The translations under genes and the position numbers were made by a program. Positions 2,373 to 50,436 of a stretch of DNA of 50,494 nucleotides are shown here, one piece after another; position 1 is the first letter of the stretch; each line of letters begins with the position of its first letter. The notes beneath the pieces are model-generated. The model was not told where the DNA came from. It did no database searches and saw only the letters and a program-made list of their open reading frames with translations. The stretch lies in IMG/VR virus record IMGVR_UViG_3300013132_000070, positions 1-50,494 of that record; one strand, given 5' to 3'. This DNA comes from a virus.

Positions 2373-3689
2373 TTACGTTAATTGAGTCTGTACGTCGTAG
2401 CGGGTGGTACTCAGTACCGACCCGTGTCGCGCCTTTAAGGCCATCAGCAAAATTGTCGATGAAATCTCTAATGCTGCATTGCTCAGCCCTTGTGGGTTAT
2501 CGGCTAACCGCATACCGGCACACGCTTTACAGATTGTATCTTTCAAACTTCGGCAGTACATCGGGCTACGCACGGTCACGCGTTGGCCGAGATACCGCAT
2601 CACGTCATCGGTCGGTAAAATCACCTGCCACCCTGAGCCCGTCCAAATCGCCCGGCCGGATAATTGTTGGATATCCACTTTCGTAAAGGTGCGAGGCAAA
2701 CCGCGAAGTGTCCCACAATCCTCTTCGACGATGGTAAAGTTACCGACGGAGCGTACCATGACTTTAGCCATCGTCCCGCCTTTCTGTGTCTCTTTAGCAC
2801 GACTGTACGAGGCGGCCCGGGCATTATTGATCATCGCACTGTATTGTACCGGGTCGGTCGGCCACCCTTCATCGAGTGCATTCGGTACGACGGTCGGCAT
2901 CTTACCTTCTTCAAAGCCTTGGTTAGACCCGAGGGTCAGGTACATACTTTTACGGGCGATGTCCGTGACTTTACTGCTCATCAAAATACTGTTGTTGGAC
3001 GGATCGTCTTTGAGCCAAGCGGCATCGTATTCTTTTAATGCCTTTTCAAAGGCCGCCAAAGTCGTGGGATCATTCAGTTGTCCTTCATACTCCTTCAGCA
3101 GTTGTGCTTTAAATGCATCCCGTCCTGCCGGAGCGACGATGTTTTTCGGTGTCGCTGCATACACGCATAACGGTGATAGGGCTTCTAAAAAGTTTAAATT
3201 TTTAGCAAACACCAGCATTTCATCGACATAGAACACATCGTTTTGCCGGGTCGCTCCGATCTCCGGGGTATCGGTCAGTGTTTTAGCTAATGTCGTTTCA
3301 ATAGCCCCGATCTTGAACTTACCGGTCACAAATGGGTATTTAGCACCGAAGGCTTCAACCAAACAAATCCAATTAACCAACAGGTTGCCGAATTTTGTCA
3401 CGACCGGGGCCGTGATGTTTGGGCACCAGCTCGCATCCAACTCCGGCGTCTCTTCTAAAAACTGAAACAACGGCTGACCGGCGACCGCTGTCAACGGCAC
3501 CAACCGGGTCGGCTCATCCGGTGCGACGTAACTATACCCGGTCGGACTCTGCACCAGCCGGTACGGATACGGGTCTTGTAAATAGTCTTGCGGACCTTCT
3601 TGTGTCAAACTTACTGCAGCGATGATCCACCCGATCCGCTTATAACAGCGGGCCTGCAGTGCATCTTTCAAATAGTGCCAACGATCCAT
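2373..3689 (-). CDS. RNA polymerase beta' subunit, C-terminal part (probably virion RNAP)
   Basis: Protein of 438 residues. After the middle it carries the bridge-helix/trigger-loop region of multisubunit RNAP ('PVQYSAMINNARAASYSRAKETQKGG' in pieces), then 'EEDCGT' and 'YCRSLKDTICKAC', which supply the four cysteines of the second beta' zinc site, and ends soon after the region matching E. coli 'GEAIGVIAAQSIGEP'. phiKZ-like phages encode two RNAPs, each with a split beta'. A larger beta' C-terminal piece lies at 12.4-14.4 kb next to beta C, so this one is probably the virion enzyme's (phiKZ gp80-like); that assignment is inference. The start at 3689 was chosen over an upstream ATG because it overlaps the o-spanin stop as TGATG behind GGAG. 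Confidence 0.82.
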   Translation of the reverse strand: MDRWHYLKDALQARCYKRIGWIIAAVSLTQEGPQDYLQDPYPYRLVQSPTGYSYVAPDEPTRLVPLTAVAGQPLFQFLEETPELDASWCPNITAPVVTKFGNLLVNWICLVEAFGAKYPFVTGKFKIGAIETTLAKTLTDTPEIGATRQNDVFYVDEMLVFAKNLNFLEALSPLCVYAATPKNIVAPAGRDAFKAQLLKEYEGQLNDPTTLAAFEKALKEYDAAWLKDDPSNNSILMSSKVTDIARKSMYLTLGSNQGFEEGKMPTVVPNALDEGWPTDPVQYSAMINNARAASYSRAKETQKGGTMAKVMVRSVGNFTIVEEDCGTLRGLPRTFTKVDIQQLSGRAIWTGSGWQVILPTDDVMRYLGQRVTVRSPMYCRSLKDTICKACAGMRLADNPQGLSNAALEISSTILLMALKARHGSVLSTTRYDVQTQLT

Positions 3690-3973
3690 CAGGGTGCTCC
3701 GTACAGGCGATGCATCCGACCGATCCAATCTTGCAAAGCTTGGGCCCGTGCGTGCATCTCCCGCATCCCAATCATCTCCATTGCATGTTGACGAGCGATG
3801 TCACTCAATAACGCACCCTCCTGCAACGTATAGTTACTTGGGCTTTTCAAATCCTCCATCAGTTCAGCGGGGGGCATCGGAAAGACTGGTGACATCACCA
3901 CGGTTCGCGGCGTTCCACAGGCGGATAAATTCAGGAGGCACAGTGCACTGAGTATCATGGTGTTTCGTGACAT
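3689..3973 (-). CDS. o-spanin (Rz1-like outer-membrane lipoprotein)
   Basis: Starting at MSRNTM, the protein has a short hydrophobic signal and the lipobox LSAC at about residues 15-18, so it should become a roughly 77-residue outer-membrane lipoprotein after processing. It begins inside the i-spanin gene in another frame (overlap 3864-3973), the usual overlapped Rz/Rz1 arrangement. Spanins fuse inner and outer membranes at the end of lysis of Gram-negative hosts. It is longer than many Rz1 proteins and lacks a strongly Pro-rich middle. Its stop overlaps the start of the RNAP beta' gene, so a lysis gene is translationally coupled to a polymerase gene. Confidence 0.78.
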   Translation of the reverse strand: MSRNTMILSALCLLNLSACGTPRTVVMSPVFPMPPAELMEDLKSPSNYTLQEGALLSDIARQHAMEMIGMREMHARAQALQDWIGRMHRLYGAP

Positions 3974-5312: not shown

Positions 5313-6053
5313 ATGTCTGACACCACCATCCCAATAGATCATAGCTCAGATGCCCGCAGCATCCTCATGTCTCAGGAAAAGATCCAGGCCGTCTTGCATC
5401 CGACTGAGAGCCCGGTACCCGAATCCGACGTACTCACGTCGAATGAGCTGAATGCCATCCTGGCGGGCGACTACGCCGATACCGATACGGGTGCCGATAC
5501 CGAAGGTCTGAACGACCTCGTCATCCGTGCGGCCGATGTGCCGCCCGAAGCCCAAGCGCTGTTCGATGCCGGTGATAACGCCGCCGCATTCGAGTACCTC
5601 CGCGACCACGGTTATGCCTCGACCCCAGCGGACGATGCGGCCGAAGAAGACGCTGCCGAACCCATTTATTGGGAAGACTTGGAAGACTTGTACAAAAGTG
5701 TCGGTGAAGCCATCGGCGGTACGGCCCTCGGGGTACAACAAATTCTGGAAGTCCCAGGTCTGCGGGAGCATGTCAGTTACGCCAATGAGCTCGCCGTCGC
5801 CGTCAATGGCCTCAACCGCGACCTCAACCATTTCGCTGACAAACTCGTCAGCATCCACGCCCAACACCTGAACCATACCGGTGAAATCAACGAACAAAGC
5901 CAATACATCGAATACCTCAGTATCGGCGATCAATACCGCACCGTCGCTGAAGAGTTTATGGCCATCACGGCCCCGGCCCTCATGACCATCAGTGAACATA
6001 CCGGCGCTGCCTTGCAAAACACCACCCCGACCTCAGAAGAAGCCCATGTCTAA
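5313..6053 (+). CDS. Unknown acidic protein
   Basis: 246 residues, very acidic (Asp/Glu/Ala-rich at about 35-120), with predicted helices in the C-terminal half ('LNRDLNHFADKLVSIHAQHLNHTGEINEQ'-type heptads, in pieces). It opens a short plus-strand block; TTGGAGCCC lies just before the ATG. Its last codons overlap the next gene's start by 8 nt, so the two are coupled. Composition suggests a scaffold-like or packaging-associated role, but no family is recognised. Confidence 0.6.
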   Translation: MSDTTIPIDHSSDARSILMSQEKIQAVLHPTESPVPESDVLTSNELNAILAGDYADTDTGADTEGLNDLVIRAADVPPEAQALFDAGDNAAAFEYLRDHGYASTPADDAAEEDAAEPIYWEDLEDLYKSVGEAIGGTALGVQQILEVPGLREHVSYANELAVAVNGLNRDLNHFADKLVSIHAQHLNHTGEINEQSQYIEYLSIGDQYRTVAEEFMAITAPALMTISEHTGAALQNTTPTSEEAHV

Positions 6054-7701
6054 TCCTACCCCCCCGACCCCGACCGCCTCGCTCGATAACGTCGATCTGT
6101 CAAAAGTCGTCAAGACGGTGACCGAAATCACGCCCGTGATCGAGACTCCGACGACCCCGCCCGTCACACCTCCGGTCATCGAGACCCCGCCAGCGGCACC
6201 GACCCCGCCACCGGCTGCCGAGCCTGCACCGCCTACCCCTCCACCCCCCGATCCGAATGCCCCGTACATCTTTAAAGAACAACGGACAACGGTCGAACAA
6301 GCGTGGACAGCCCCGACGACGTGGTCGGATGAGGCTGAGACGTTGAACATGCCCAGTCATTTCGATCAAGAGGTGAGCCGTAACTTGCTCAATACTCCGA
6401 AGATCAATCTAGTCGACAGCCCAGAAGGCCGTAAATGGGCCAGTGTTTTACAGGAAGGCGTGGATCTGACGATGGCAGAAAATGCCTTCGTACCCAGTTT
6501 AGAAGCAGAACACACCGACTGGCGACAAGCCGTGCACTACAACGGTGCCGAACTGCGTGGGCGACAACCCAACATCGGCGGTGGTAACACCAACCAGGTC
6601 TTGACCGGGGAGAGGGCGGTCTTACAGATTCTGACTCACGTAGGGTCCGGTTCTATCTTTCAAGTGCCGTTATGGCACACGGGTATTTGGCTCACCCTCA
6701 AACCACCGATGGAAAGCGAGCTGGTCGAACTCAACCGTATTCTCGTGGCACAGAAGATCGAGCTTGGTCGTTACACCTACGGGTTAGCGTTTTCTAACTC
6801 TATCGTGTACACGATTGAACACCTGGTCGATTTTGCCTTACGGCACGTGTATGACACATCGATTAAACTTGATGTCAGTAACACCCGCGCCTTGAAGGAT
6901 CTGATCGTCACCCAGGACATCCCGACCTTGTTGTGGGGGTTGGCGTGTGCGATGTATCCAAAAGGCTTTCAGTACCGAAGGGCCTGTATGGAAGATCCAG
7001 CAACGTGTAACCATATTGTTGAAGAAGTCATTAACCTAAGGAAACTGTTGTGGGTCGACCGTACCGCCTTGACTGATTGGCAGCGTAGTCACATGTCAAG
7101 TTGGCGGTCTGCTAGTATGGAGATGGAAACCATCAACCGGTACCGCTCGGAAATGCTCAGCCTAAATGACTTTACGATACGCCTGTATGAAAATACTGAC
7201 CGTGAAATGCGCATCGTCCTTAAAAGTCCGACCGTCTCAGATTACATCGACTCCGGGTATCGTTGGATAGGCGGCATCGTTGAATTGGTCGAAAAGACGT
7301 TAGCCGCACAGAGTCGCTCAGATGAACGGACTAAACTGATTACACAACACGGCCAAGCCACGGCCATGCGTCAATACACGCATTGGATTCGAGCGATTCA
7401 AATCGTCAGTCATGACGAAGTGGTTCGCTCAATCGAAGACCGTGAGGCGATTGAGAAAGTCTGTGATGCCTTGAGTGGAGATGATGCTGTTCGGAATACG
7501 TTCTTGACCAAAGTGGCCGAGTACATCAATCAAAGCACCCATGCCGTCATTGGTATACCCACCTACGATTGCCCAGCCTGTAAAACACCGCAGGAAAGCA
7601 GTCTGGTCCTTCCACACCATCGAAATGTAATACCGCTGGATGTAAACCAAACTTTTTTCGCTTTACTCACTCAACGAATGGCACGAATAGCACAACGCTG
7701 A
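6046..7701 (+). CDS. Pro-rich N-terminus structural-type protein with frameshift site
   Basis: 551 residues from MSNPTPPTP at 6046. Residues 1 to about 85 are Pro/Thr-rich and disordered; the remainder is a folded helical protein, ending in a CPAC motif and 'VIPLDVNQTFFALLTQRMARI'. The start overlaps the preceding gene by 8 nt. Near the 3' end the sequence reads T_TTT_TTC in frame (7653-7659), followed after 6 nt by a stem-loop, and the -1 frame stays open to 8135. So a 551-residue form and a 696-residue -1 fusion are both predicted. No function recognised. Confidence 0.7.
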   Translation: MSNPTPPTPTASLDNVDLSKVVKTVTEITPVIETPTTPPVTPPVIETPPAAPTPPPAAEPAPPTPPPPDPNAPYIFKEQRTTVEQAWTAPTTWSDEAETLNMPSHFDQEVSRNLLNTPKINLVDSPEGRKWASVLQEGVDLTMAENAFVPSLEAEHTDWRQAVHYNGAELRGRQPNIGGGNTNQVLTGERAVLQILTHVGSGSIFQVPLWHTGIWLTLKPPMESELVELNRILVAQKIELGRYTYGLAFSNSIVYTIEHLVDFALRHVYDTSIKLDVSNTRALKDLIVTQDIPTLLWGLACAMYPKGFQYRRACMEDPATCNHIVEEVINLRKLLWVDRTALTDWQRSHMSSWRSASMEMETINRYRSEMLSLNDFTIRLYENTDREMRIVLKSPTVSDYIDSGYRWIGGIVELVEKTLAAQSRSDERTKLITQHGQATAMRQYTHWIRAIQIVSHDEVVRSIEDREAIEKVCDALSGDDAVRNTFLTKVAEYINQSTHAVIGIPTYDCPACKTPQESSLVLPHHRNVIPLDVNQTFFALLTQRMARIAQR

Positions 7702-7706
7702 GTGAG
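7653..7706 (+). promoter_or_regulatory. Candidate programmed -1 ribosomal frameshift signal
   Basis: In-frame slippery heptamer T_TTT_TTC at 7653-7659, a 6-nt spacer (GCTTTA), then an 8-bp perfect stem: CTCACTCA (7666-7673) pairs with TGAGTGAG (7699-7706) around a 25-nt loop. The zero-frame TGA (7699-7701) lies in the 3' arm. The spacing equals that of known bacterial and phage -1 frameshift sites. The -1 frame has been open since 7584 and has no ATG, GTG or TTG before 7797, though its translation looks coding from before the slip-region stop. Confidence 0.7.
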
Positions 7707-7796
7707 GTTCCACATATCGGGGATCCAGGATTCGGTTATCAAGCCGATGGACGTCGCGTTGATGTCGTAGCGTTTCTAAACAAAGCCTTATTAGAA

Positions 7797-8135
7797 TTGC
7801 CGGCCTTAAACTCAGTCGATGCCCAGATGATCATGCGCGATCTGTATGAATCTGAGTATCGGCTGTACGACCATCTGCACCCGCACCCAAATAAACCATT
7901 GGCCTCAATAGCGATGCATAAGCAGGAGGATTTAAATACTGATTCAGCGTTAGAGCAGGTCTGTCGGTTGTACATTCGGCACCGGATCTACGAATGCTTT
8001 CATCTGGATCTGCTACAGTTTCTGGAATTGCCGGCGGATGTGATTGAAATGTTGATCGCACTGGCCAAAGAAAATACGAAGCAGAGTAATAAAGCCATGT
8101 CTGAAGTTGAAAAGAGCATGCAGCTCGATAAATGA
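7797..8135 (+). CDS. -1-frame extension of the preceding gene (or a TTG-started ORF)
   Basis: As a separate gene this would need a TTG start (112 residues). Coding character clearly begins upstream: the same frame reads 'HIGDPGFGYQADGRR' and 'VDVVAFLNKALLELP' before the TTG, and stays open back to 7584 without a standard start codon. The simplest reading is that it is the C-terminal 158 residues of a fusion made by -1 frameshifting at 7659. It is followed by a strong terminator hairpin at 8141-8174. Function unknown. Confidence 0.6.
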   Translation: MPALNSVDAQMIMRDLYESEYRLYDHLHPHPNKPLASIAMHKQEDLNTDSALEQVCRLYIRHRIYECFHLDLLQFLELPADVIEMLIALAKENTKQSNKAMSEVEKSMQLDK

Positions 8136-12390: not shown

Positions 12391-14427
12391 TTACATGGGT
12401 GGGATAATCTCCTCGGGTAAGGTGAAGGCATCGAACACACAATCCGGTCTATCGAGCTGGTAAAAGCTACGCGGATCCATAATAAGTTTTGGTTGCTCTT
12501 CAAAGGCATACGCGGCCGACAACGAGCGGTTGCGAATCGTCAGTTCCGCGACACCGAGTGCTGCATGGGTCGAATTACGGGCAAGACCGAATTGGTCATT
12601 GACCCCATCAGAAATCATTGAAGCATAGACGATGACTTCCAATAAGGCAATGTTGACATTGAGTTTCGCATTCACCAGATCAAACAACTCTACCAGCGTT
12701 CTCACCGGTGATTCCGGCTTGAGGCGTTCGGTGATGTTCTTGATCCGCGATTCGATTACATGGGCGATCTGCAACGAGTGTTGTGAATAGGAGTACTCCA
12801 TTGCCGGTAGGATGAACAGCGGTAACGCTGGATTCCAATACTCCAGATCAAACACCAGATTAAATTTGCTGTCCATGCTCCAGCGCTGCAGTTTACAGTA
12901 CTTCAAAAACTCATGGCTGAGGATCGCCATGCGCCCGTGCTGACTGATCTGCATCTGCGCGCGATACCGACTGCTGCGCTCGTCCAACTCAATGAGGATC
13001 GTATCGATTGCCGAAATACGGCTCGGGTCCAGATCCTCAATTTTTGGGGCATGACAGATGTCCGTGAGATTACTGACCTCCGTTTGAGCGATCAGCAATT
13101 TGGGTTTACCGGCCATGAGTTCTTTACGCAGGTAATAGGCATTATCTTTACCTTTAGTGGTAAAGTAGGACGACGTTACTTCGTTCAATGTCAACGGTTC
13201 GGCTTTAGAACTCGCATCCAAGTGCTTATTCGACAACACCGATTGCGACGTCTGCCGCGTCATCGTCCCGGCACAGATGTGACCGACATTGGTCTCATGG
13301 TTGAGATTATCGGCCATCTGCCCAAAACACACTCGACACACAGCGTGCGGGTCAGCATCTTGACACGTCAAGACACTTCGTAGCTGAATGGTCTGTCCTA
13401 CCCACTGCTGATCTTTTGCCGACAGAATTTTCAACGTCTGTGAGTCTGGATCCAGGTAGTACTTACCTTCTAGAAAGACCAAGTCCCCTGGATAGGTACC
13501 ATTGCCGTGCTTCTGAGGAGGTTTCACAATCCAGGTGATATACTGCGTCGACCCACAGTCGCCATGCTGGACGTACGTAATCCCCTCCGGTCCAATGATC
13601 GGCACGTCTTCATAATGGATACGCTCCACCACCATCGCCAACAACTGTAAACGCCGTGCAAAATATTCCGCATCCTGCAACGGCGATTCGGCGAAGTACA
13701 GACTCTTGGCAGCCGAACGAGACTCGGCGGCAAAGTCATACAACGACCGCATTCCCTGCGTATATGACCGCAAGACAGGGTAGGTGAAGATATGACCGTC
13801 TACTTCCGTTGGAAAACCCCGTGGGCCCACGCATTGCAGTACTTGGTTTTGATTGACCATCTGTGAACGCGTCGCACGGGCTAAAGCATTGTCCGTCAGA
13901 TCGTCCAACTCGTTCAAACCCTTGACCAATGCTCCATATGCCGCGTCGATTGAGTCAGCCGTGTTGTTTAAGCCGTCGAGAGCCGGTTTGATAGCCGGGT
14001 GATCGACGACTTGCAAACAGTCCAAGATATCCACGGAGACGACATATGCTTCTGCCCGATGACTGAGGTCGACGTAGAGTTCATTGACAATCTCGTACAC
14101 CATCTTGACCAATGGATCCCGTTTCAAGGGAGTATTCAGCTGATACACTTCGACTACATCCCAGAAAATAGCACTGAGCAATTTGATATGCGTCTTGGCT
14201 GAGATCACTTCTTTACCGAGGACCACATCGACATGATGACGGGGTAAGATTGGCGTCTGAGGGTACTCCCGGTGCATTCGCCAAAAGTATGATGAGTAGC
14301 CGGTACTGCGGTACGTAGTTAGCAATACCGAATCATCGTCAAACTTGAGGTTGAATTCACCGATCAGCAGATCCCACAGTTCTACCGTACTGTATTGCAG
14401 GAGATAGCGGGCACTTATTGTTTTCAT
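12391..14427 (-). CDS. RNA polymerase beta' subunit, C-terminal part (non-virion RNAP type)
   Basis: 678 residues. Matches beta' from the bridge helix onward: 'QCVGPRGFPTEVDGHIF' at about 198-214 (E. coli 'AGMRGLMAKPDGSII'), a trigger-loop region 'FAAESRSAAKSLYFAESPLQDAEYFARRL' (in parts, 232-260), 'GDCGS' at 289-293, and 'LTCQDADPHAVCRVC' about 352-366, giving the four zinc cysteines. About 190 N-terminal residues cover the region between the active site and the bridge helix. It lies 4 nt downstream of beta C, the order of phiKZ gp71-73/gp74, so it is probably part of the non-virion polymerase that transcribes late genes. The catalytic Asp triad is in the beta' N gene at 27.1-29.5 kb. Confidence 0.85.
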   Translation of the reverse strand: MKTISARYLLQYSTVELWDLLIGEFNLKFDDDSVLLTTYRSTGYSSYFWRMHREYPQTPILPRHHVDVVLGKEVISAKTHIKLLSAIFWDVVEVYQLNTPLKRDPLVKMVYEIVNELYVDLSHRAEAYVVSVDILDCLQVVDHPAIKPALDGLNNTADSIDAAYGALVKGLNELDDLTDNALARATRSQMVNQNQVLQCVGPRGFPTEVDGHIFTYPVLRSYTQGMRSLYDFAAESRSAAKSLYFAESPLQDAEYFARRLQLLAMVVERIHYEDVPIIGPEGITYVQHGDCGSTQYITWIVKPPQKHGNGTYPGDLVFLEGKYYLDPDSQTLKILSAKDQQWVGQTIQLRSVLTCQDADPHAVCRVCFGQMADNLNHETNVGHICAGTMTRQTSQSVLSNKHLDASSKAEPLTLNEVTSSYFTTKGKDNAYYLRKELMAGKPKLLIAQTEVSNLTDICHAPKIEDLDPSRISAIDTILIELDERSSRYRAQMQISQHGRMAILSHEFLKYCKLQRWSMDSKFNLVFDLEYWNPALPLFILPAMEYSYSQHSLQIAHVIESRIKNITERLKPESPVRTLVELFDLVNAKLNVNIALLEVIVYASMISDGVNDQFGLARNSTHAALGVAELTIRNRSLSAAYAFEEQPKLIMDPRSFYQLDRPDCVFDAFTLPEEIIPPM

Positions 14428-14431
14428 GACA

Positions 14432-16708
14432 TCATCCTTTTGGCTTAAAGGTGGTAAAGTACGGAGAGGTGACTGGCAATGTCGGCGGTGTGTACTTCAT
14501 ACGCCACCCTCCACACATGGCGACATGGCGCACCAATCCCAACGGTTTGGACCCGCCCAATGGCACCTGATGGCGATCGATCGCCATTGGGATATTGGTC
14601 GGCTGGGCCGCCGTCAAGATGGTCCAGACCACATACCGGTGCGTAGTCGGGCTGGTACTGCGGTCTAACATCTCTGCAATTGCAGCCCGCCCACAATACC
14701 CAGCAAAGATACGGCCTTCCGATTCTCCAATAGTACGAACTGGACTATTGCGATGCGGAAAGGTGTACTTCTGCGCCCGAGTGATAGGACTTAGTATTCC
14801 GAAATGTTGCAACGTACCAGAAGCTACTGAGGACAGCACGTCCGTGATCTTGTCCAATAGCATCATGTACACCGGCGCGATTCGAACCGGGTATTCCGTC
14901 GTGACCCGGTGACCACTATAACCAACATATGTCACTGGCCCGTATGTCGGTTTATACTCTTGTTGCAACCGACGGGCCACATCAGAGATCTCATACTCGT
15001 GATTCGTCGGGTAAAAGATCGAACCGCCATTCTCGACCAACCGGGCCAGGTGTTCAATTTTGTCGTCCAACCCCAACCCAGCGTAGTGTTGGTACTGTAA
15101 CGGTGAGATGATCTGGTAAAATCCCATTCTGTACCGGTAGGCATTATCGAATTGGTCGGGCGCTTGCTGGGCCAATGCCCGTACAGCTGGTAATGCCGTA
15201 GCATACGGTTGTTTTGGTATGCCTAAGATGGACCGAACAGTCTTCGTGACGTCTCGTTCGCAGGCTCCAAAGAACATTTCATACAACCGCCCCAAGTTCA
15301 TACGACTAAACGTTGTCTCGGCACCAACGACAATATCGGCCCGGTTACCAGCCTCATCGACCGGCATATTTTCCGGTTTCTCAATATAACAGATCACCCC
15401 TTTACCACCTTGACTGCACGTCAGTTTATACCCGATCGTCGGCTGTACTGTATACTCGATAGTAAGCTCGACCCGATAATCATCCAGTGGCACTTTACGA
15501 TACACCAAGTTTAGCTTACTGTCCTTCTTGAGTTCTTTACCGTTTTTGCTATCCTTACGACTGTGGTTACGGCCCAACACGGCCATGGCTTCTACCAACA
15601 ACCTGTGCAATTCTGGCTTTAGAATCACTTCCGCTTCCCCGTACTTCCTACGGCGTTCTTCTCGAATAGATTCATAAGCCTCTAACAACTCACGATAGAA
15701 CCGTTTCAAGGCGCGGGTGTATTTGTTCATGGCTGACATGACCCCTTCTGGCGTCTTGCTTGGTTCATTGTCGTCGTGGTAAATTTTGATATCTACGATC
15801 TTGCCAGATTTTATTTCTACCGGGTGTCCATCTTTTTCTCCCTGTATAATCGACCCCGGCCCACGAACATAGATCGCGTCGTCAAAAATGAAGTCAGGAG
15901 TCATGCAGTCGGTGATCGATGTCAAAACCGGACCCAAGTCCGATTCATAATTACGCAACATGACCAAAATACCGTCATCTCGGACCATCTGGCCGATCTC
16001 TGGGAACGGTTGATAATGGCCGGCATGGCCATATAAGTTCAATGGAAAGGCATGATTGCCAAATTCTACGACCCGTTTATCGTAGACTTTAAACCGGAGT
16101 CGCGGTAAGACATCTTCACTGATAAGGATACCATCTTCAGCCACAGCCGGATGCGACATGCCGGCGACATTCAATTCGATGCCAAATTTATAGCCACCGT
16201 TCTCACCGATCGAAGGGCTATTAGCAAAGATTGTATCCTTCTCGATATAGTCCGTGCCGGCCGACTTATACAGACCAGGCACCAGGCGTTTAAACTCAGG
16301 AGTCAACTTGTACTCAAACCCAAAGTACTGATGGTACGAGGCATGCCGTGGAATGACCATGCACCCAATCTGCGGTAACCGGTTGACATTCGGATCATTG
16401 GTCACCTCTTCGTAAATCACCACCATCTCAGGATTTTCCGGAATCGCATCCACGTCGATGCGAGTCGGGTAACGGTCGATCATGCGGAGTACCCGCATAT
16501 CGCAAGGGGCTTTCTTGTTAAAGACATAGTCACCCATCCGGCATTCTACGCCAGTCTGGATGCGTTTTTCAGTGGAACCTTCAATGACCAAATCCGACGA
16601 CTTGTGGGAGCCGTACATGTAAGCCCTTGAAGCGGAGTTAGTACCGGTGGCGAAGTTAGTCGCTTGTATCCCCAGCAGCTCGGGATAGAGTTCATTTGGT
16701 TTTGTCAT
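14432..16708 (-). CDS. RNA polymerase beta subunit, C-terminal part
   Basis: 758 residues from MTKPNELYPE at 16708, chosen because AAGAGGTCC stands 7 nt before it. Shows the beta C-terminal signature: 'KLTCSQGGKGV' at about 428-438 (E. coli 'MAGRHGNKGV'), 'NMPVDEAGNRADIV' at 447-460, 'FSRMNLGRLYEMFFG' at 467-481, and 'APVYMMLLDKITD' further on (E. coli 'GYMYMLKLNHLVDDK'). This part binds the nascent chain and DNA-RNA hybrid beside beta'. The beta N-terminal partner is not in the window. Adjacent to the larger beta' C subunit and in the same order as the phiKZ nvRNAP genes. No intron was seen here, although the phiKZ equivalent has one. Confidence 0.88.
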   Translation of the reverse strand: MTKPNELYPELLGIQATNFATGTNSASRAYMYGSHKSSDLVIEGSTEKRIQTGVECRMGDYVFNKKAPCDMRVLRMIDRYPTRIDVDAIPENPEMVVIYEEVTNDPNVNRLPQIGCMVIPRHASYHQYFGFEYKLTPEFKRLVPGLYKSAGTDYIEKDTIFANSPSIGENGGYKFGIELNVAGMSHPAVAEDGILISEDVLPRLRFKVYDKRVVEFGNHAFPLNLYGHAGHYQPFPEIGQMVRDDGILVMLRNYESDLGPVLTSITDCMTPDFIFDDAIYVRGPGSIIQGEKDGHPVEIKSGKIVDIKIYHDDNEPSKTPEGVMSAMNKYTRALKRFYRELLEAYESIREERRRKYGEAEVILKPELHRLLVEAMAVLGRNHSRKDSKNGKELKKDSKLNLVYRKVPLDDYRVELTIEYTVQPTIGYKLTCSQGGKGVICYIEKPENMPVDEAGNRADIVVGAETTFSRMNLGRLYEMFFGACERDVTKTVRSILGIPKQPYATALPAVRALAQQAPDQFDNAYRYRMGFYQIISPLQYQHYAGLGLDDKIEHLARLVENGGSIFYPTNHEYEISDVARRLQQEYKPTYGPVTYVGYSGHRVTTEYPVRIAPVYMMLLDKITDVLSSVASGTLQHFGILSPITRAQKYTFPHRNSPVRTIGESEGRIFAGYCGRAAIAEMLDRSTSPTTHRYVVWTILTAAQPTNIPMAIDRHQVPLGGSKPLGLVRHVAMCGGWRMKYTPPTLPVTSPYFTTFKPKG

Positions 16709-16712
16709 AATA

Positions 16713-16770
16713 GGACCTCTTGTAGTGATAACATGGAATGAGCACAGTAGGCTCTTTTTTAGTATATAAG
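16713..16770 (-). promoter_or_regulatory. Promoter-like motif and shared leader of RNAP beta C; divergent region
   Basis: Minus strand reads CTTATATACT (16770-16761), then TTATCACTACAAGAGGTC ending at 16713, then ATG at 16708. The leader is identical over 18 nt to that at 8959-8976. The TATATA core is nearly palindromic and also lies 25 nt before the plus-strand gene at 16789, so it may serve both directions. Confidence 0.5.
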
Positions 16771-16788
16771 ACACTAGGGTTTTTCAGT

Positions 16789-27109: not shown

Positions 27110-29466
27110 TCACGCGTCAGGCAATGCCTCAAACCGTGCGATCTGATCGGGTGTAAACTGATACCCCCGTCGCGAAGACACAAAGTTCGAGATCGTCGCC
27201 ACGACCGGTTTAGGCAGGGAGATATTGCCGGATATCTCCCGTGGCCGCGTCAGCTCAAACACATTCTTGTGCGGTGCGAGCCCATACCACTGATCAGCCA
27301 TGTAGTGATCGATGGCTAAGCTCACGTTCATTTCATCCCCATCAAACCTAGTGTCCACACTCGTACTGAGTGCCGGTGTGCAGTGACACCCGCCCGTACT
27401 TTCATACGGGAGCAGACTATCTCTTTACCCTCGCCCTCTCTCGTGAAGAGGCGGTCGGGTACTTCCCACTCGACCCCGCTATCCGTAGCAGGGCTCCACC
27501 TTGCTGAAGGGTTAGTCGTTGAACCTTACCCATAGCAGGATCACTGCCGTAGGGTCTTGGCTGCTGATTGCCCAATCCATAGTCTTTTCGACCAATATCA
27601 CGCTCACCGTTTCCAGTCACGTTGTAGGGCCTATGGCTCTTAGGGGTTTCCAGCAATTCAGGAAGGCTCCTCACCCGCCTTACGACGAGGAGGGACATTA
27701 AGAAAAGTAGCTTTTGAATATGTTTTCACCCGTAGTTATGCAAACACTTGGTTTGCGTATTATACTACTATGCAATAAAACAAATGGATAAAAACATAAA
27801 AAACTACCCGTTTCTTACACCTTTGTCAGCATTGGGGGCCTTAGTGATCAAGATCGACAATGATAGGGTGTTATCCATCACGTCTGTCTTGAATTTCGTG
27901 ATATACACGCGTTGTGCTGCCAATGTCCGTGTGCGTCCGTCACACCGGTGTGCGCTGACACCCGCCCGTACTTTCATACGGGAGCAGACTATCTCATCAT
28001 CCTCGTGGTGTCTTGTGGACCCAGCGGTCGGATGCTTCCCATTTCGCCCGATCATCCATGGTCAAGCTACACTTAGTCGTTGAACCTTACCCGTAGCAGG
28101 ATCACTGCCGTAGGGTCTTGGCTGCGCGATTGCCCAATCCACTGTCTTTTAGCCAATATCACGCTCACCGTTTCCAGTCACGTTGTAGGGGCAGTGGCTC
28201 TCAGGGGGTTCCCGCAATTAGAGAAGTTATGCAGCCATCCTTTCAGATGACAGGGGCCTAAGTAGTTCGTCTTTACCATGGAGGTATACCTGTAAAAAAG
28301 ACGAGCTATACTATACCAGACCCGGAGAGGAGAGAGGGATTGCGCTGTATCAAACAAACTATTTTACGATCCGGCGATTCGTCTAACAACTCGTTGAGTA
28401 GTTTATCCAGCAACGGGTGGTATTTGTAGACATGTCCGTACAGCATCCCGATGGCATCGTTTTGCGCGATACCCAGTTTCATCAGTTTGTTGAGCAGATG
28501 GGGTTGAAAAGCCGTCAGTCCAACCGACCACGGCACATGAATCTCATCGTAGGCATGATCGTTCGTTAACGATGAGATCACGGCACGGAACGAGAAATGA
28601 GAGCGCGTACCGAAGACATGCTTGCGGAAGATGCCGTGTTTACTACTCAGGCTCGTTTTATAGAAGTTGTAGTAAAACTCGGACAGTTTGGTGAGGGCTT
28701 TGACGGTCCGCCGCTCTTTGGTCCGAAGTGAATGGTCGGACAGCGGATTGTCGATCCCGGCGATCATCATGATCGCATCGATGGCTCCGATATGGATCGC
28801 GTCGATCCAGCGGCCGGTGTAGTTCTGCTCCAGGATGAGCAGGGATTTGTTCGGCAGCGGGATGTACTGACTGAAAATACGGTCGGGGTAATCCTGCATC
28901 AAGTGGTACAAATAGTCCGTCTTGACCCGACGACTTTTCGGCATCTTGAAGTCTTTATGGGTGAACAACAGTTGCGTGATGTCGTAGAAGTTGTTGACGA
29001 AATAGTTGTATCCGCGTTCAATGCCCATGTCAGCGAGTTCGTTGATAATCGTGGGTTGTTTGACATTCGGGCGGTATGTAGAATCACAGATCCACTGAAT
29101 GACTGAATAACCGGATTTCTTGAACCGCTGATTGAGCATGTGCCAAATCGTCGGGTTAATCAGGGAAGCAACTTTCTCCGGAGCTCTGAACCAGACGAGT
29201 GGTTCGATATCCTCATTAATGATGGATTTGACGGGTTTGTGGCAGTATTCACACAGGACATCAATGGCGAACTCCCCTTTAGTACGACCACAATGGCAGG
29301 AGGGCAGTATGGATATCATGTCCGACGAGTAGTGAGTCATGATCAAGTTGCGGATGTAATCCCGGTTATCTTCAAAGACATTGCCGAGATCATTGATGAT
29401 AATGGGTGGTGACCGGAGTTGAGTGACCAGCTCATTAAAGTTGACAAGTTCTTGGTAGACTGGCAT
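27110..29466 (-). CDS. RNA polymerase beta' subunit, N-terminal part, split by two group I introns
   Basis: Three exons, 489 residues after splicing. Exon 1 (29466-28330, 379 aa): zinc motif CHCG...CEYC (C57, C59, C72, C75), switch region 'HGIFRKHVFGTRSHFSFRAV' (E. coli 'GRFRQNLLGKRVDYSGRSV') and 'RNPSL' (E. coli 'NRAPTL'). Exon 2 (27920-27825, 32 codons): AAQRVYITKF...ITKAPNAD. Exon 3 (27346-27110, 78 aa): FDGDEMNVSLAID to the stop. Joined, exons 2 and 3 rebuild the metal-binding NADFDGD motif. Spacing between RNPSL and NAD fits E. coli to one residue. All junctions are phase 0; exact 5' splice sites are uncertain by a codon or so. Adjacent to chimallin as phiKZ gp55 to gp54, so probably nvRNAP. 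Confidence 0.87.
27347..27824 (-). ncRNA. Group I intron 2, between NAD and FDGD codons
   Basis: 478 nt, no endonuclease gene. Group I core on the minus strand: AATTGCTGGAAACCCC (P element), CAGCAGCCAAG then CCTACGGC (R/P7-side element), GTTCAACGACTAA (S element), GAGATAGTCTG, and P9 hairpin CCCGTA/TACGGG. A P2-like stem CTCCTC/GAGGAG precedes the core. The intron ends in G at 27347. Candidate P1: exon ATGCTGAC pairs with GTTTGCAT (27745-27738) with one mismatch, giving C-G at the splice site instead of the usual U-G. Confidence 0.87.
27921..28329 (-). ncRNA. Group I intron 1, after the RNPSL codons
   Basis: About 409 nt, no endonuclease gene. Same core: AATTGCGGGAACCCCC (28220-28205), GCGCAGCCAAG near 28130-28119, GTTCAACGACTAAG (28085-28072), GAGATAGTCTG (27995-27985), P9 hairpin CCCGTA/TACGGG. 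Core segments of 20-35 nt are identical to intron 2, so the two are recent copies; the 5' parts differ, with a long stem CGTCTTT.../...AAAGACG here. Ends in G at 27921. The P1 helper sequence was not found and the 5' site may shift by one codon. Confidence 0.85.
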
Positions 29467-30015: not shown

Positions 30016-31905
30016 TTAATAGCGGTAGTAGGACGGTTGGTAACCTGCCACCGGGGCCTGATAGCCGTAGTCACGACCCATAAAGGTCTGACCGGCTGCC
30101 ATACCTGGTGAGAGCAGGGCATCATTGACGAAGTTACCGACACCGCGTTGTTGATTGAACTCAGCAGACAGGGTCGGTGTCTGGATGCGGGTAGACAGAC
30201 CGGCTTCTGAACAACCGCGGATCAAGGCGGCTGTGAATTCCGTACTGAACGTTATACGCTGTGCAAAGCCGGTGAACACGGCATTGTCGTGCGTATATCC
30301 TGATATCATCTTCCGTCGTTCCGCCAATCGAGAAATCAGCGGTATTTCCGTGCGGTAGAACGTATCTGACCACAGCCGTATCTGCATCGGGTCTTTATCT
30401 CCAATGAGATTGGCGACGGCCAGGTAGTCAATTGCCCGAATATCCCGCTTAAGGCCGTTACTGTCGGTGTAATAGCCCATGTGGATACGGTTGTTCACGT
30501 CCGTGAACATGGCCCCGGACGTAGCATTGAAGTGCCGGCTGAACAACCCGTTAGTCAAGCTGTCGGCCGCTTTCATGATCACTTCCTGTGCATTGGGATT
30601 GCCATTAGCCGCTTCTTTAAAGACGGCCAAATACCAGGTCTGAGGCCCACATTCCGGTACATCCAGGGAGATGACCAGACCCGGCCGGAACAGGCGGGTG
30701 ATCAGGGCTCCCAGATCCGGCAGCTGAAAGCCATCGGACTTGGTGTCGATCCGCGTGCCAAACCCCCGCTGGTCATTTTCCAAGTTGGCATCGATGTTAA
30801 GTGCACCGATGTCGTACATGTCAATGCCTTGGGTATTAGGCGACGGCCGCAGGGCCTGAATCCAGTTATTGTCATCCCGGACGGCCGTCGCTGTCGCCAA
30901 CCACAACAGAATGGATGATGGAGTATAACTGAAGTTGGACGCAATGTCCGTTACAATGAGACGTGCTACATATCGCTGCGTCGGTACATTGTACTGCTGA
31001 GGTTGATAAAAGTTGTACCCGGTGACAGGGGCCAACGGAGCGTAGATCACATCGACAAAACCTGACAGAGACGAGATGGTCTGTTCCCGATTGCCGGCAT
31101 TTAGGGATTGTGCCTGCCGCTGATCCTGCGAAGGATTGCGCTGTGAGGTAAACCTGACGATGATGTCCGACCGCACGGGTTCACCGACGGCATTGTCCAG
31201 CTCCTGCCGGCTGAACGAGACATTGCAGATCAGACTGCTGTCATAGCTGGCTGATGCCAAGTTGATGTCCATGAAGCCCGGTTGGTGAATTTCAAGTTCT
31301 ACCGTAGCTGCCATACCGGCGCTTAGTGCTAACCTTTTCACCAGATTCTTATCTTCCGGGTTGAAGCCGGATGGAATCACGCAGGCATCAGCCATACGGT
31401 AAGGGCCTACCGGGAAGTGTTGTTTCACCTTTTCCAACACTCTTTTATAGAGTTCATCATCCATCGCATCGCCGGCGACCCGTATTATTTCCACCTGACG
31501 GTTGTAGACCGTTTGGTATATGGCACTAGGGCGTTCCCCAGTGGCTTCTATGATCAGTGTGTGGTAGGCGACACCTAAGTCAGCTACATTCTTCAGCTTC
31601 ACGCAAACCACAATGGCCGAATAGGCCAATGCCGTATCGACTGTGTTGTCGATGTTGATGAGTGCTATCTCAAACTTGGGATCGGCCTCCTTGTAAATAT
31701 CCGCCAAGGTCTGATGCATCTTGGTCAGGTATTCACTGCCCACGCCGGGCGATATAGGGGCGGCAAACAGACCGCCTGCATGAAACGACCACGGCTGACG
31801 GCCGGTAGATGCCGGTGTCGTCGGAGTCTGAGGCGGTGTGGGATGGATGTAGCCGGTCGTACCGGTAGCTGGGGTCGGACGTATGTTTTCGTCTTTAATG
31901 GCCAT
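30016..31905 (-). CDS. chmA: Chimallin-like phage nucleus shell protein
   Basis: 629 residues, the length of known ChmA proteins (about 610-640). Disordered Pro/Thr-rich N-terminus (residues 1-35), two long mixed alpha/beta parts, and a flexible Gly/Tyr-rich C-terminus ending PSYYRY, consistent with ChmA lattice arms. Neighbours support it: a PhuZ gene in the window, and next to it the RNAP beta' N gene, as phiKZ gp54 beside gp55. ChmA assembles the proteinaceous lattice around phage DNA and excludes host nucleases. A 459-nt leader precedes it and a strong terminator follows, expected of a very abundant transcript. No motif proves it; it could be another abundant structural protein. Confidence 0.72.
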   Translation of the reverse strand: MAIKDENIRPTPATGTTGYIHPTPPQTPTTPASTGRQPWSFHAGGLFAAPISPGVGSEYLTKMHQTLADIYKEADPKFEIALINIDNTVDTALAYSAIVVCVKLKNVADLGVAYHTLIIEATGERPSAIYQTVYNRQVEIIRVAGDAMDDELYKRVLEKVKQHFPVGPYRMADACVIPSGFNPEDKNLVKRLALSAGMAATVELEIHQPGFMDINLASASYDSSLICNVSFSRQELDNAVGEPVRSDIIVRFTSQRNPSQDQRQAQSLNAGNREQTISSLSGFVDVIYAPLAPVTGYNFYQPQQYNVPTQRYVARLIVTDIASNFSYTPSSILLWLATATAVRDDNNWIQALRPSPNTQGIDMYDIGALNIDANLENDQRGFGTRIDTKSDGFQLPDLGALITRLFRPGLVISLDVPECGPQTWYLAVFKEAANGNPNAQEVIMKAADSLTNGLFSRHFNATSGAMFTDVNNRIHMGYYTDSNGLKRDIRAIDYLAVANLIGDKDPMQIRLWSDTFYRTEIPLISRLAERRKMISGYTHDNAVFTGFAQRITFSTEFTAALIRGCSEAGLSTRIQTPTLSAEFNQQRGVGNFVNDALLSPGMAAGQTFMGRDYGYQAPVAGYQPSYYRY

Positions 31906-42143: not shown

Positions 42144-43121
42144 TTACAGTATCAATCCGTGTTCATTCAGCTCCTCATCCAGATGGATCTTTTTCGTGAT
42201 CGCACTGGTAGTATGCTCATCGATTTCTTTGATCAGTTTTGTCAACCGATCGATGACGCTGGGGAAATACCCGGCGACTGTCACGATGTGGAGTGGCAAG
42301 TCGACCGTGATGGCATCTTTGAGTTTATCGTCGATGTAGCCCGTGGCACGATAGCCTACCGGGATCCCGATCGCTGCATCGGTCTGGGCATCGGAAATGG
42401 AGACTGCCGAGATCACATTATGACCCCGAGCGATCTCGACATTCTTGGAGTAAAACTCCAGATGCGACAGTTGGGGTTCGATCGCCGTCACTTTCTGATA
42501 ATTCAAAAAGTTCGACAGATCCGCCGAATCCAGTTCGTGGTTCTGTCCGGAAAAGATCGCAGCCAGCAACACGATGATGGTCTGGACTTTCTGATCCACG
42601 CTACCCCGCGGTGTCGCCGAGCTGTTCTCGTAGTAGACCATGTTGACCGGCTTTTCTACTTTACGGGCACAGGCTTCGTAGCCTTTAAGGGTTTTCATGG
42701 TGTTATCGACTTCTATGCGGCTGTCGGTACTGCCAATTGTGATGACGATTAGCTGTGCGTCTTTGGTCATTAGTTGACCGGCGACGATCGGACCGATGAC
42801 TGAGCCAGAGCCCCCAGAGGCGCTGTGAACTATGACATTGATATCCCCGGGCTTGTACCGATGTAAGATTTCTTTCGCCCGCTCAGCGATCGCTGACGCA
42901 TTGCTATCACGCTTCTTGCCAGACCCATCTCGATCTTCGATCAAATACACCCGCTCATCCGAGATATCCAAGCCAGCTCTCTTGAAATTACTGGCACTCG
43001 TATCTATAAATACGGGTTTAAAGGCGGCAAAGCCGTCGCTGGGCCGATCGGCATGCCGCATCAGCTGCGACACGATGTTGATGCCGGCCCCACCAGCTGC
43101 GTAGATATTCATGGTATTCAT
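42144..43121 (-). CDS. phuZ: PhuZ-like phage tubulin
   Basis: 325 residues. Tubulin/FtsZ features: 'AAGGAGINIV' (8-17) for the nucleotide-binding N-terminus, the T4 glycine loop SASGGSGSVIG (100-110; tubulin signature GGGTGTG variant), a T6/H7 region 'DSADLSNFLNYQKV' and an acidic C-terminal tail 'DEELNEHGLIL', as PhuZ tails that mediate filament contacts. Short for an FtsZ, as PhuZ is. In nucleus-forming phages PhuZ filaments centre and rotate the phage nucleus and carry capsids. AAGAGGTACC precedes ATG 43121; MNIYAAGG at 43112 is an alternative start. Confidence 0.92.
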   Translation of the reverse strand: MNTMNIYAAGGAGINIVSQLMRHADRPSDGFAAFKPVFIDTSASNFKRAGLDISDERVYLIEDRDGSGKKRDSNASAIAERAKEILHRYKPGDINVIVHSASGGSGSVIGPIVAGQLMTKDAQLIVITIGSTDSRIEVDNTMKTLKGYEACARKVEKPVNMVYYENSSATPRGSVDQKVQTIIVLLAAIFSGQNHELDSADLSNFLNYQKVTAIEPQLSHLEFYSKNVEIARGHNVISAVSISDAQTDAAIGIPVGYRATGYIDDKLKDAITVDLPLHIVTVAGYFPSVIDRLTKLIKEIDEHTTSAITKKIHLDEELNEHGLIL

Positions 43122-48109: not shown

Positions 48110-48148
48110 GGGTATATACCTAGAAACAAAGGATGGAAATATCGGTCA

Positions 48149-48162
48149 GGCACAGTATATGC
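48149..48162. promoter_or_regulatory. CATATACTGTG motif between 48109 and terL
   Basis: Minus strand GCATATACTGTGC about 45 nt before ATG 48109, and 65 nt before terL on plus. It matches the recurrent motif, which is nearly palindromic at its core. Confidence 0.4.
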
Positions 48163-48222
48163 GACTGTCCTCTTTTTCAATCCAGGCATGGTATAGACGT
48201 TTTAATCCATCGAGAGCTCCTT

Positions 48223-50436
48223 ATGACTATTTTATTTTTAGACGAATGGTCACAGTACCCGAGTGCCATTGTTGACACTGCGACTGTGAATACCTCGTTC
48301 ATCCGTTACAGCGCCTTGTTGCGCGAGATGAACATTAAAAACCATGCCTTTCCTTTGCAGTTACACAATCCTTTGTTGCAGGGGGTCAATCCGTTTGATG
48401 CAAATTTGACACCTGAGCAAATCCTGATGATCGCCATCGAATCTAAAAACAATGTATTTTACTTCATGCGTGAAGTGGTACGTGTCCCGGCACCGGCAGG
48501 CCCCGGCGTGACTCACCTCTTTGCCAACCGTGGCAACATCGCTTTATTTTGGTTATTTTACAATCACATCATGACGATGCTGATACAACCGCGTCAGACC
48601 GGTAAATCCGTCTCTACCGATGCATTGCAAGTCTATTTGTTAAATGTCCGCTGTCAGAACACGACGATCAATTTGTTAACGAAAGACGATGCCCTACGCG
48701 CCCGTAACTTGGCACGGATTAAAGACATCGCAATGGAACTCCCGTGGTACATGCAGCGACGCAGTAAAAAGGATGTCGCCAATACTGAAGAGATTACGAT
48801 CGCAGCATTGAAAAACAGCTACAAAGGGTTTTTGCCTCATCAATCGCCAAAGCAGGCTTTGAATGTAGGCCGTGGTCTGACCAGCCCGATCTTCCACATC
48901 GATGAATTGGCCTTTCTTTACAATAACGAGATCATGATCCCCGCTGCATTGGCCGGCGGTGGTGCGGCTCGAGATATCGCTGCGAGTCGAGGTGAACCGT
49001 ACGGTACGATCATGACCACGACCGCCGGTAAGAAAGATGACCGGGATGGGAAGTATGCCTACCAGCGGGTCGTCAATTCGGCTATCTGGTCAGAACACTT
49101 TTATGATGTCGCTGATGCGGCTGCACTGGAGCACGTGATTCGACGTGCCTCCCCCAAAGGCACCTTGGCCGTGAATTGTACGTTCAGTCATCGTCAGTTA
49201 GGATATACGGATGAATGGCTCAAACGTAAAATGGAAGAATCTGGTGCCGTAGGCGATGATGCCGATCGTGATTTTTTTAACCGTTGGACTTCAGGTACTC
49301 AACGCCTCCCGTTACCGATTCACCTAATGGAAAGGATCCGTGAATCCCGGCAGATCGATTGTCACACCCAGATCAGTAAACCATACGGCTACGTCACTCG
49401 CTGGTATATCCCGGAAGCCCAATTAAAACCACTCATGTTACAACAGTCGACAGTGATGGGTCTAGATACGAGCGATGCCGTCGGTCGGGATGATATTGGC
49501 ATGGTGATTCGTCATGTCGTCACCGGTGAGATCGTAGCTGCTGGTAACTACAATGAAACAAACTTGATCACGTTTGCAAAATGGATTGCAGAGTTGTTGG
49601 AACAGTATCCAAAAATGACATTAATAATTGAACGGCGCTCATCTGGGGCTTCGATCCTGGATTACTTGATACTGCAGTTGGTCAGTAAAGGTATAGATCC
49701 ATTTAAGCGTCTCTACAATCGTGTCGTGCAAGATGCAGAAGAACAAAAGGAGCGGTTTAAAGAATTGCAACGGCCGTTTCATATGCGGCATCAAGAAGTC
49801 TATACGCAATACCGTAAACACTTTGGTTTTGCTACATCTGGGAGCGGCCTGACGAGCCGTACCGAGCTATACTCGACCATACTACTGGCTGCAGCAAAAA
49901 ACACCGGAGATCGCGTCAGAGACACGATACTGGTGGATCAGATTTTAGGCTTGACTACTCGTAACGGTCGCATCGATCACGGGGAAGACGATCATGACGA
50001 TGTTTGCATCGCCTGGTTGTTGACGTATTGGCTGCTGAGCAATGGCAAACATTTGGACTTTTACGGGATCGACAGTCGGGTGATCTTGCGAGAAATCAAT
50101 TCCAGTGATCCGGAAGTCGCCCCTGAAAACCTCTACCAGAAACAACTGCAACGGCAACTGCGGACCCGCATTGAGCAGCTCATCGCCGTCATTCAGAATG
50201 AGCACGACCCGTACATCAGTATGAAGTATGAACGGGAATTGATGGCACTCAGTCAGGACATCGTGTTAGAAGAAGGGGAGACGTTCAGTGTGGATAATTT
50301 GCTCAAGGAGCTCCGTGAGCAGAAGCAATTGCAGAACTCGAATCATAAGACCTCTGTCATGGGGTATAGGCCTCAGGGAGCCTCTCAGGGCTACTACCAT
50401 CGATCTCCTACGCGAGGGAGCATATACTTTGGTTAA
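48223..50436 (+). CDS. terL: Terminase large subunit
   Basis: 737 residues from MTILFLDEWSQ at 48223 with GAGAG 9 nt upstream; an ATG at 48133 is rejected. ATPase: Walker A QPRQTGKS (122-129), Walker B with catalytic Glu IFHIDE (about 223-228), 'TTTAGK' coupling motif (about 263). RNase H-like nuclease: GLDTSDAVGRDD (about 407-418) and DDHDD (about 595). This is the motor and headful nuclease that packages DNA. Last gene of the window, with Pro/Gly/Tyr-rich C-terminus. Similar to phiKZ gp25-type terminases. Confidence 0.92.
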   Translation: MTILFLDEWSQYPSAIVDTATVNTSFIRYSALLREMNIKNHAFPLQLHNPLLQGVNPFDANLTPEQILMIAIESKNNVFYFMREVVRVPAPAGPGVTHLFANRGNIALFWLFYNHIMTMLIQPRQTGKSVSTDALQVYLLNVRCQNTTINLLTKDDALRARNLARIKDIAMELPWYMQRRSKKDVANTEEITIAALKNSYKGFLPHQSPKQALNVGRGLTSPIFHIDELAFLYNNEIMIPAALAGGGAARDIAASRGEPYGTIMTTTAGKKDDRDGKYAYQRVVNSAIWSEHFYDVADAAALEHVIRRASPKGTLAVNCTFSHRQLGYTDEWLKRKMEESGAVGDDADRDFFNRWTSGTQRLPLPIHLMERIRESRQIDCHTQISKPYGYVTRWYIPEAQLKPLMLQQSTVMGLDTSDAVGRDDIGMVIRHVVTGEIVAAGNYNETNLITFAKWIAELLEQYPKMTLIIERRSSGASILDYLILQLVSKGIDPFKRLYNRVVQDAEEQKERFKELQRPFHMRHQEVYTQYRKHFGFATSGSGLTSRTELYSTILLAAAKNTGDRVRDTILVDQILGLTTRNGRIDHGEDDHDDVCIAWLLTYWLLSNGKHLDFYGIDSRVILREINSSDPEVAPENLYQKQLQRQLRTRIEQLIAVIQNEHDPYISMKYERELMALSQDIVLEEGETFSVDNLLKELREQKQLQNSNHKTSVMGYRPQGASQGYYHRSPTRGSIYFG

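Follow-up and report, generated by a model that had tools for sequence, protein, structure and literature searches.

A -1 frameshift that yields two forms of a tail assembly chaperone (TAC) is already known as a kind, and is described for gpG/gpGT of phage lambda and for siphophage TACs (Xu, Hendrix and Duda 2004; reviewed in PMC5009743). In the Vandenendeviridae and Andersonviridae, including phage Adele, TAC-N and TAC-NC come from one locus through a -1 shift at the conserved poly-T sequence GTTTTT (PMC12846349). The locus described here resembles that of phage Adele, where the site is close to the 3′ end of TAC-N, no stop codon interrupts the -1 frame, and annotators split the locus; the Adele locus differs in belonging to other myophage families and in having the gene just upstream of the tape measure gene (PMC12846349). 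Similar to gpG/gpGT, our locus is predicted to give a short product and a rarer -1 product from overlapping ORFs, the second of which lacks its own start. The roles of the lambda forms, the short one with the tape measure and the long one with the tail tube, served as the model for the TAC-N and TAC-NC proposed below. In contrast to lambda, the first gene (gene 1) encodes 551 aa with a T4 gp26-like predicted fold and a CPxC motif, and no annotated tape measure gene is adjacent. Lambda G has about 140 aa.

In phage T4, the proteins gp26 and gp51 (PF12322, phrog_150) were reportedly treated as the TACs by Vladimirov, Gautam and Davidson in 2022. PF12322 matches both proteins and phrog_634 matches gp51 only, and the two resemble a shorter and a longer variant of a single protein, made from two genes. 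Gene 1 resembles gp26 in its predicted fold and in the C-terminal CPxCG...FFxLL pattern; the end of gp26, CPECGKTHAHVIRGLKEFFELL, has the same order as CPxC...PLDxxxxFFxL in gene 1. T4 differs in that gp26 and gp51 are encoded by two separate, divergently oriented genes, and in having GAG TTC TTT GAG instead of a slippery run. Moreover, PF12322 (T4_baseplate) misses the jumbo-phage protein: it gave no match in the window, phiKZ, 201phi2-1, PhiPA3 or Noxifer, and matched twice in the T4 positive control. Similarity between the extension and the gp51 C-terminus was not detected.

Layout of the locus and proposed mechanism

The window is the whole stretch of DNA analysed, 50,494 nt of the IMG/VR record IMGVR_UViG_3300013132_000070. 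Both parts match families of unknown function, gene 1 phrog_4585 (E 1.8e-113) and the extension phrog_12109 (E 1e-25). The features of the locus are listed in Table 1. The in-frame heptamer, the 6-nt spacer and the perfect 8-bp stem of the initial annotation are at the positions it gave, and its product lengths of 551 and 696 aa, the latter for the frameshift fusion, were reproduced. The -1 frame is open from 7584 to 8135. The CPAC sequence, initially noted as a tail, is indeed near the end of gene 1 and is a conserved zinc-knuckle-like motif, present also in T4 gp26.

Table 1. Positions of the features of the frameshift locus in the window.
Feature	Position	Strand	Remarks
Upstream gene	5313..6053	+	position of phiKZ gp78 family; 8-nt overlap with gene 1 start
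Gene 1, 0-frame	6046..7701	+	551 aa, proposed TAC-N (short TAC); ATG 6046, TGA 7699-7701; phiKZ gp77 family (phrog_4585)
CPAC codons	7570..7581	+	conserved zinc-knuckle-like motif of gene 1
Slippery heptamer T_TTT_TTC	7653..7659	+	in gene 1 frame; site conserved among relatives
Spacer, heptamer to stem	7660..7665		6 nt
-1 frame extension, post-shift	7659..8135	+	158 codons plus stop; phrog_12109; proposed C-terminal part of TAC-NC
Stem 5′ arm, CTCACTCA	7666..7673	+	
Stem 3′ arm, TGAGTGAG	7699..7706	+	overlaps gene 1 0-frame stop codon
TTG, earliest -1-frame start candidate	7797..7799	+	without SD-like site; not conserved in L002

The -1 programmed frameshift initially proposed at this site is strongly supported by a conserved heptamer, a universal -1 overlap, the lack of an independent start, and coding conservation ahead of the first possible start; on this comparative sequence evidence, it is near-certain. 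Comparison with the relatives described below showed the signal and the frame of the shift, the coding constraint on the shifted frame, and that the downstream ORF has no start of its own. Taken jointly with the predicted function, the best reading is that the locus probably makes, by a -1 frameshift, the short and the long TAC of phiKZ-like nucleus-forming phages.

According to this reading, one mRNA would give rise to two proteins through -1 programmed ribosomal frameshifting. The majority of ribosomes would stop at the TGA and release the 551-aa protein, while a fraction, with tRNA-Phe on T_TTT_TTC, would move back by one base, aided in the clade of the window by the stem downstream. The shifted ribosomes would run to the stop at 8133 and produce the 696-aa protein, which would carry an additional and mostly helical domain. 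The short TAC-N may coat the tape measure protein, and the long, rarer TAC-NC may bring in tail tube subunits.

Conservation of the frame and of the slip site

The search with tblastn revealed gene 1 in 249 phage records, all with less than 60% identity. Counterparts of gene 1 include phiKZ gp77, PhiPA3 gp074 and 201phi2-1 gp136, and the extension corresponds to PhiPA3 gp073 and 201phi2-1 gp135. IMG/VR contigs and phage records provided 150 usable loci, of which 102 were kept after removal of near-duplicates; the full set was too diverse for one alignment, and alignments were made by subgroup. In 101 out of 102 non-redundant loci, and in 101 out of 101 intact ones, the phrog_12109 domain is encoded in the -1 frame and in overlap with the end of gene 1. 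The lone exception, L002 (IMGVR_UViG_3300045125_000085), is uninformative, as the frames of this contig are broken at several places by what look like sequencing indels. L002 is also the nearest relative found of the window, with 68% DNA identity over 1.6 kb. The median pairwise identity of the gene 1 proteins among the relatives is 29%, and thus the arrangement is conserved over deep divergence.

The same arrangement is present in the finished reference phages phiKZ, PhiPA3, 201phi2-1, Noxifer and Goslar. In phiKZ, the slip site reads ACT TTT TTT ACT, that is T_TTT_TTT, and the -1 frame extends without interruption over record positions 71957 to 71442 (minus strand); the annotation covers just its last part, PHIKZ076.4 (71442-71684). 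A sequencing error or a decayed gene in the contig of the window could be suspected, given that homopolymers are error-prone, a caution already raised in the initial annotation. Nevertheless, this explanation is refuted by the identical arrangement in 101 independent relatives, finished reference phages included, and is practically excluded.

At a conserved Phe-Phe site near the end of gene 1, 97 out of 102 loci carry an in-phase TTT-TTN. Seventy-seven loci have T_TTT_TTN, divided into T_TTT_TTT (47), T_TTT_TTC (27) and T_TTT_TTG (3). Twenty other relatives possess G or A at the first position (G_TTT_TTT in 11, A_TTT_TTT in 5, G_TTT_TTC in 3 and A_TTT_TTC in 1), where re-pairing in the P site would be weaker. 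The G_TTT_TTY variants are plausible in view of the GTTTTT site in the TAC genes of the Vandenendeviridae and Andersonviridae. In the remaining five loci, the homologous position is occupied by a similar T-run (CTTTTTA or GGTTTTTT) that does not encode Phe-Phe. In four sequences (L118, L123, L128 and L129) Phe-Phe is replaced by Leu-Phe (CTT-TTT-ATT); in this group, slipping of a single tRNA on TTT-A would still lead into the -1 frame.

In the gene 1 bodies of the relatives, T_TTT_TTN was in phase at none of 35,768 other codon positions. The leading Phe codon is TTT in 97 out of 97 sites, compared to 33-43% of Phe codons elsewhere; TTT-TTN itself defined these sites, and the count is to be read as no Phe-Phe site having TTC first. 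Among 25 representatives, one per 40%-identity cluster, a set in which relatedness is reduced but still present, this usage has a naive P of about 1e-16. The base 5′ of the leading TTT, which played no part in the recognition of the sites, is T in 22 out of the 25 representatives versus 6.6 expected. Codon choice and preceding base rule out that the T-run merely encodes Phe-Phe.

A T-run can also act on the transcript. The phage RNA polymerase could add or drop a base on the run, and the mixed mRNAs would then be translated. Twenty-nine out of 97 relatives possess runs of 8-9 T, and phiKZ-like phages encode multi-subunit RNA polymerases of their own, both in agreement with such transcriptional slippage. 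Nonetheless, runs of only 5-6 T are found in 28 out of 97 loci, including the window (6), which is short compared to the known slippage of other polymerases. The run is also always in X_XXY_YYZ phase, and in the clade of the window a conserved stem lies downstream of it at a distance suited to ribosomes. Transcriptional slippage is therefore very unlikely, and because of the 28 short runs we infer slippage by ribosomes rather than by RNA polymerase.

Start of the downstream frame and RNA stem

Nearly all records split the locus into two genes, with the extension usually annotated as a separate, truncated gene. This annotation corresponds to an explanation in which ribosomes reach the -1 ORF, an ordinary separate gene, through re-initiation or translational coupling past the gene 1 stop, and the T-run just encodes Phe-Phe. 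Possible starts close to the stop exist in some phages, such as a TTG overlapping the stop in 201phi2-1 and an ATG at +26 in Psa21. However, SD-like sites precede the first -1 start in only 6 out of 96 loci, similar to the random rate of 5.6%, whereas 75 out of 95 loci have them ahead of the first ATG of gene 1. The earliest possible -1 start is scattered from -43 to +413 nt relative to the gene 1 stop. In the window, a scan for ATG, GTG and TTG confirmed that the frame is open to 8135 and that no usable start precedes TTG 7797, as initially stated.

Conservation of the protein begins ahead of any start. Out of 70 loci carrying the H(V/I)xxxxFG motif, 54 have no ATG, GTG or TTG between the slip site and this motif. 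In the 32 codons ahead of TTG 7797, the window and L002 share 24 identical aa, and their differences are distributed 10/5/21 over codon positions 1/2/3; because of the shared residues and this pattern, the stretch behaves as translated. A coupled gene could lie in either of the other frames, yet only the -1 frame was observed, and the Phe-Phe codons and the preceding base are under the extra constraint described above. A separate gene is thus highly improbable. Pairs of separate genes with clear starts, named in the initial annotation as a refuting outcome, were looked for among the relatives and did not occur. The absence of an independent start in the downstream ORF was shown by these sequence comparisons.

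The 63 nt from the heptamer of the window have a folding energy of -15.7 kcal/mol versus -9.0 for shuffled sequences (z -2.66), and 3 out of 200 shuffles were as good. The stem is found in one register in six related sequences (the window, L001, L054, L056, L057 and L094). In an alignment of ten sequences, 72% of the cells pair at the stem register compared to 23-43% when slid, and two-sided changes were found in 5 out of 11 stem pairs. Across the family, stems of at least 7 bp just downstream of the site are somewhat commoner than expected (10 versus 3.5). Family-wide folding of the downstream 50 nt was not stronger than in control windows (p = 0.13), and a general downstream RNA structure was rejected for the family on this result and kept for the clade of the window. 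The stem looks like a clade-level stimulator rather than a family trait, as far as the sequences indicate. Of the signal initially described as heptamer plus stem, the heptamer is therefore conserved across relatives and the stem only in the clade of the window.

A dnaX-like SD stimulator upstream of the slip site was considered and rejected, as SD-like sites are present there in only 4 out of 97 relatives.

Predicted fold, proposed role and genome setting

Gene 1 residues 132-551 were modelled by AlphaFold2 (78 sequences) with a mean pLDDT of 89, and the extension model has a pLDDT of 88. Among predicted viral structures, Foldseek placed the own family of gene 1 first, followed by several T4-like proteins annotated for baseplate hub assembly or as hub subunits, with E-values from 6e-5 to 4e-4, a probability of 1.00 and a target TM-score of 0.46-0.57. 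An annotated siphophage TAC was matched only with E 0.14. In the PDB, no meaningful match was detected with the extension by Foldseek (best E 7.8) or with gene 1 by VIA-align, whose best Z of 5.6 is in the range that the tool calls common. Annotators of DT01, AH06 and pEa_SNUABM_43 named the protein gp26-like (DT01), baseplate, or baseplate hub assembly protein.

At the sequence level, Pfam, PHROG and hhalign comparisons of gene 1 with T4 gp26 and gp51 were weak and below significance, and the search for related loci with T4 gp26 revealed close T4 relatives only. A sequence-level proof of T4 gp26/gp51 homology was abandoned, as none of these three gave a convincing result. According to the models, the relation to T4 gp26 is one of fold and not of Pfam membership, and the 551-aa protein appears to be a large relative of gp26. 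The initial description as a structural-type gene is probably wrong, since the fold resembles gp26, a tail/baseplate assembly factor. The initial contrast with tail assembly chaperones is probably wrong as well; by its gp26-like fold, gene 1 is itself most likely a case of TAC frameshifting.

Since the fold of the 551-aa protein relates to T4 gp26, the pair is most likely the TAC of phiKZ-like nucleus-forming phages, and we consider this role probable. The layout typical of TACs, with a short form, a C-terminally extended form and a second ORF without its own start, is present at the sequence level. Furthermore, phiKZ gp77 and 201phi2-1 gp136 carry no virion-protein flag in their records and their neighbours are flagged, which fits a chaperone.

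The genes around gene 1 encode RNA polymerase subunits, a helicase and unknown proteins, and no annotated tape measure gene is nearby. A position just upstream of the tape measure gene is usual for TACs and not defining. This setting among RNA polymerase genes and away from tail genes would also suit a real frameshift in proteins other than TACs, such as factors for the assembly of baseplates or heads, or components of the transcription programme. The matched gp26-type proteins were historically named baseplate hub assembly proteins, and PF12322 has no sequence-level match here, in agreement with this explanation. Nevertheless, a short form and a -1-extended form near the 3′ end are the hallmark of TACs, the gp26 fold and the C-terminal CPxC...FFxL order agree with a TAC, and a poly-T site is also used by the TACs of the Vandenendeviridae and Andersonviridae. 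A role other than TAC is thus unlikely. It is doubtful, though conceivable, that the locus encodes a giant frameshifted gp26-type chaperone, placed outside the tail genes in an RNA polymerase block, with a role beyond tail length. For example, such a chaperone might couple the assembly of tails or heads with the phage nucleus or with the packaging of the virion RNA polymerase, and the -1 shift would set the ratio of its two forms.

No prior report on a frameshift or tail chaperone of phiKZ, jumbo phages or Chimalliviridae was found in the open-access library searched. Within that library, a TAC-type shift that occurs in phiKZ-like nucleus-forming phages as a whole, in a large gp26-like protein encoded at a distance from any annotated tape measure gene, is apparently new. 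If the proposed TAC reading is right, the locus provides a candidate for the TAC of phiKZ-like giant phages, and hundreds of their genomes hold a protein entered in databases as two hypothetical genes, of which one is usually truncated. In that case, phiKZ gp77 and its missed extension, of which PHIKZ076.4 is a fragment, would gain a testable role. The locus would also be informative on the evolution of chaperone pairs, with proteins of one kind produced through a frameshift here and, apparently, through two separate genes in T4.

The window encodes a nuclear shell protein (phrog_4795, E 1e-89; 30019-31905, minus strand) and a PhuZ tubulin (phrog_4733; 42147-43121, minus strand), which confirms the initial assignment to a nucleus-forming phage. 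Split RNA polymerase beta/beta′ genes, typical of phiKZ-like phages, surround the locus at 2373-3728, 12391-14427, 14432-16774 and 28309-29466, all on the minus strand. The ORF of the terminase large subunit (48133-50433, plus strand, 767 aa) matches phrog_2 in two separate stretches, and possibly contains a large insertion such as an intein.
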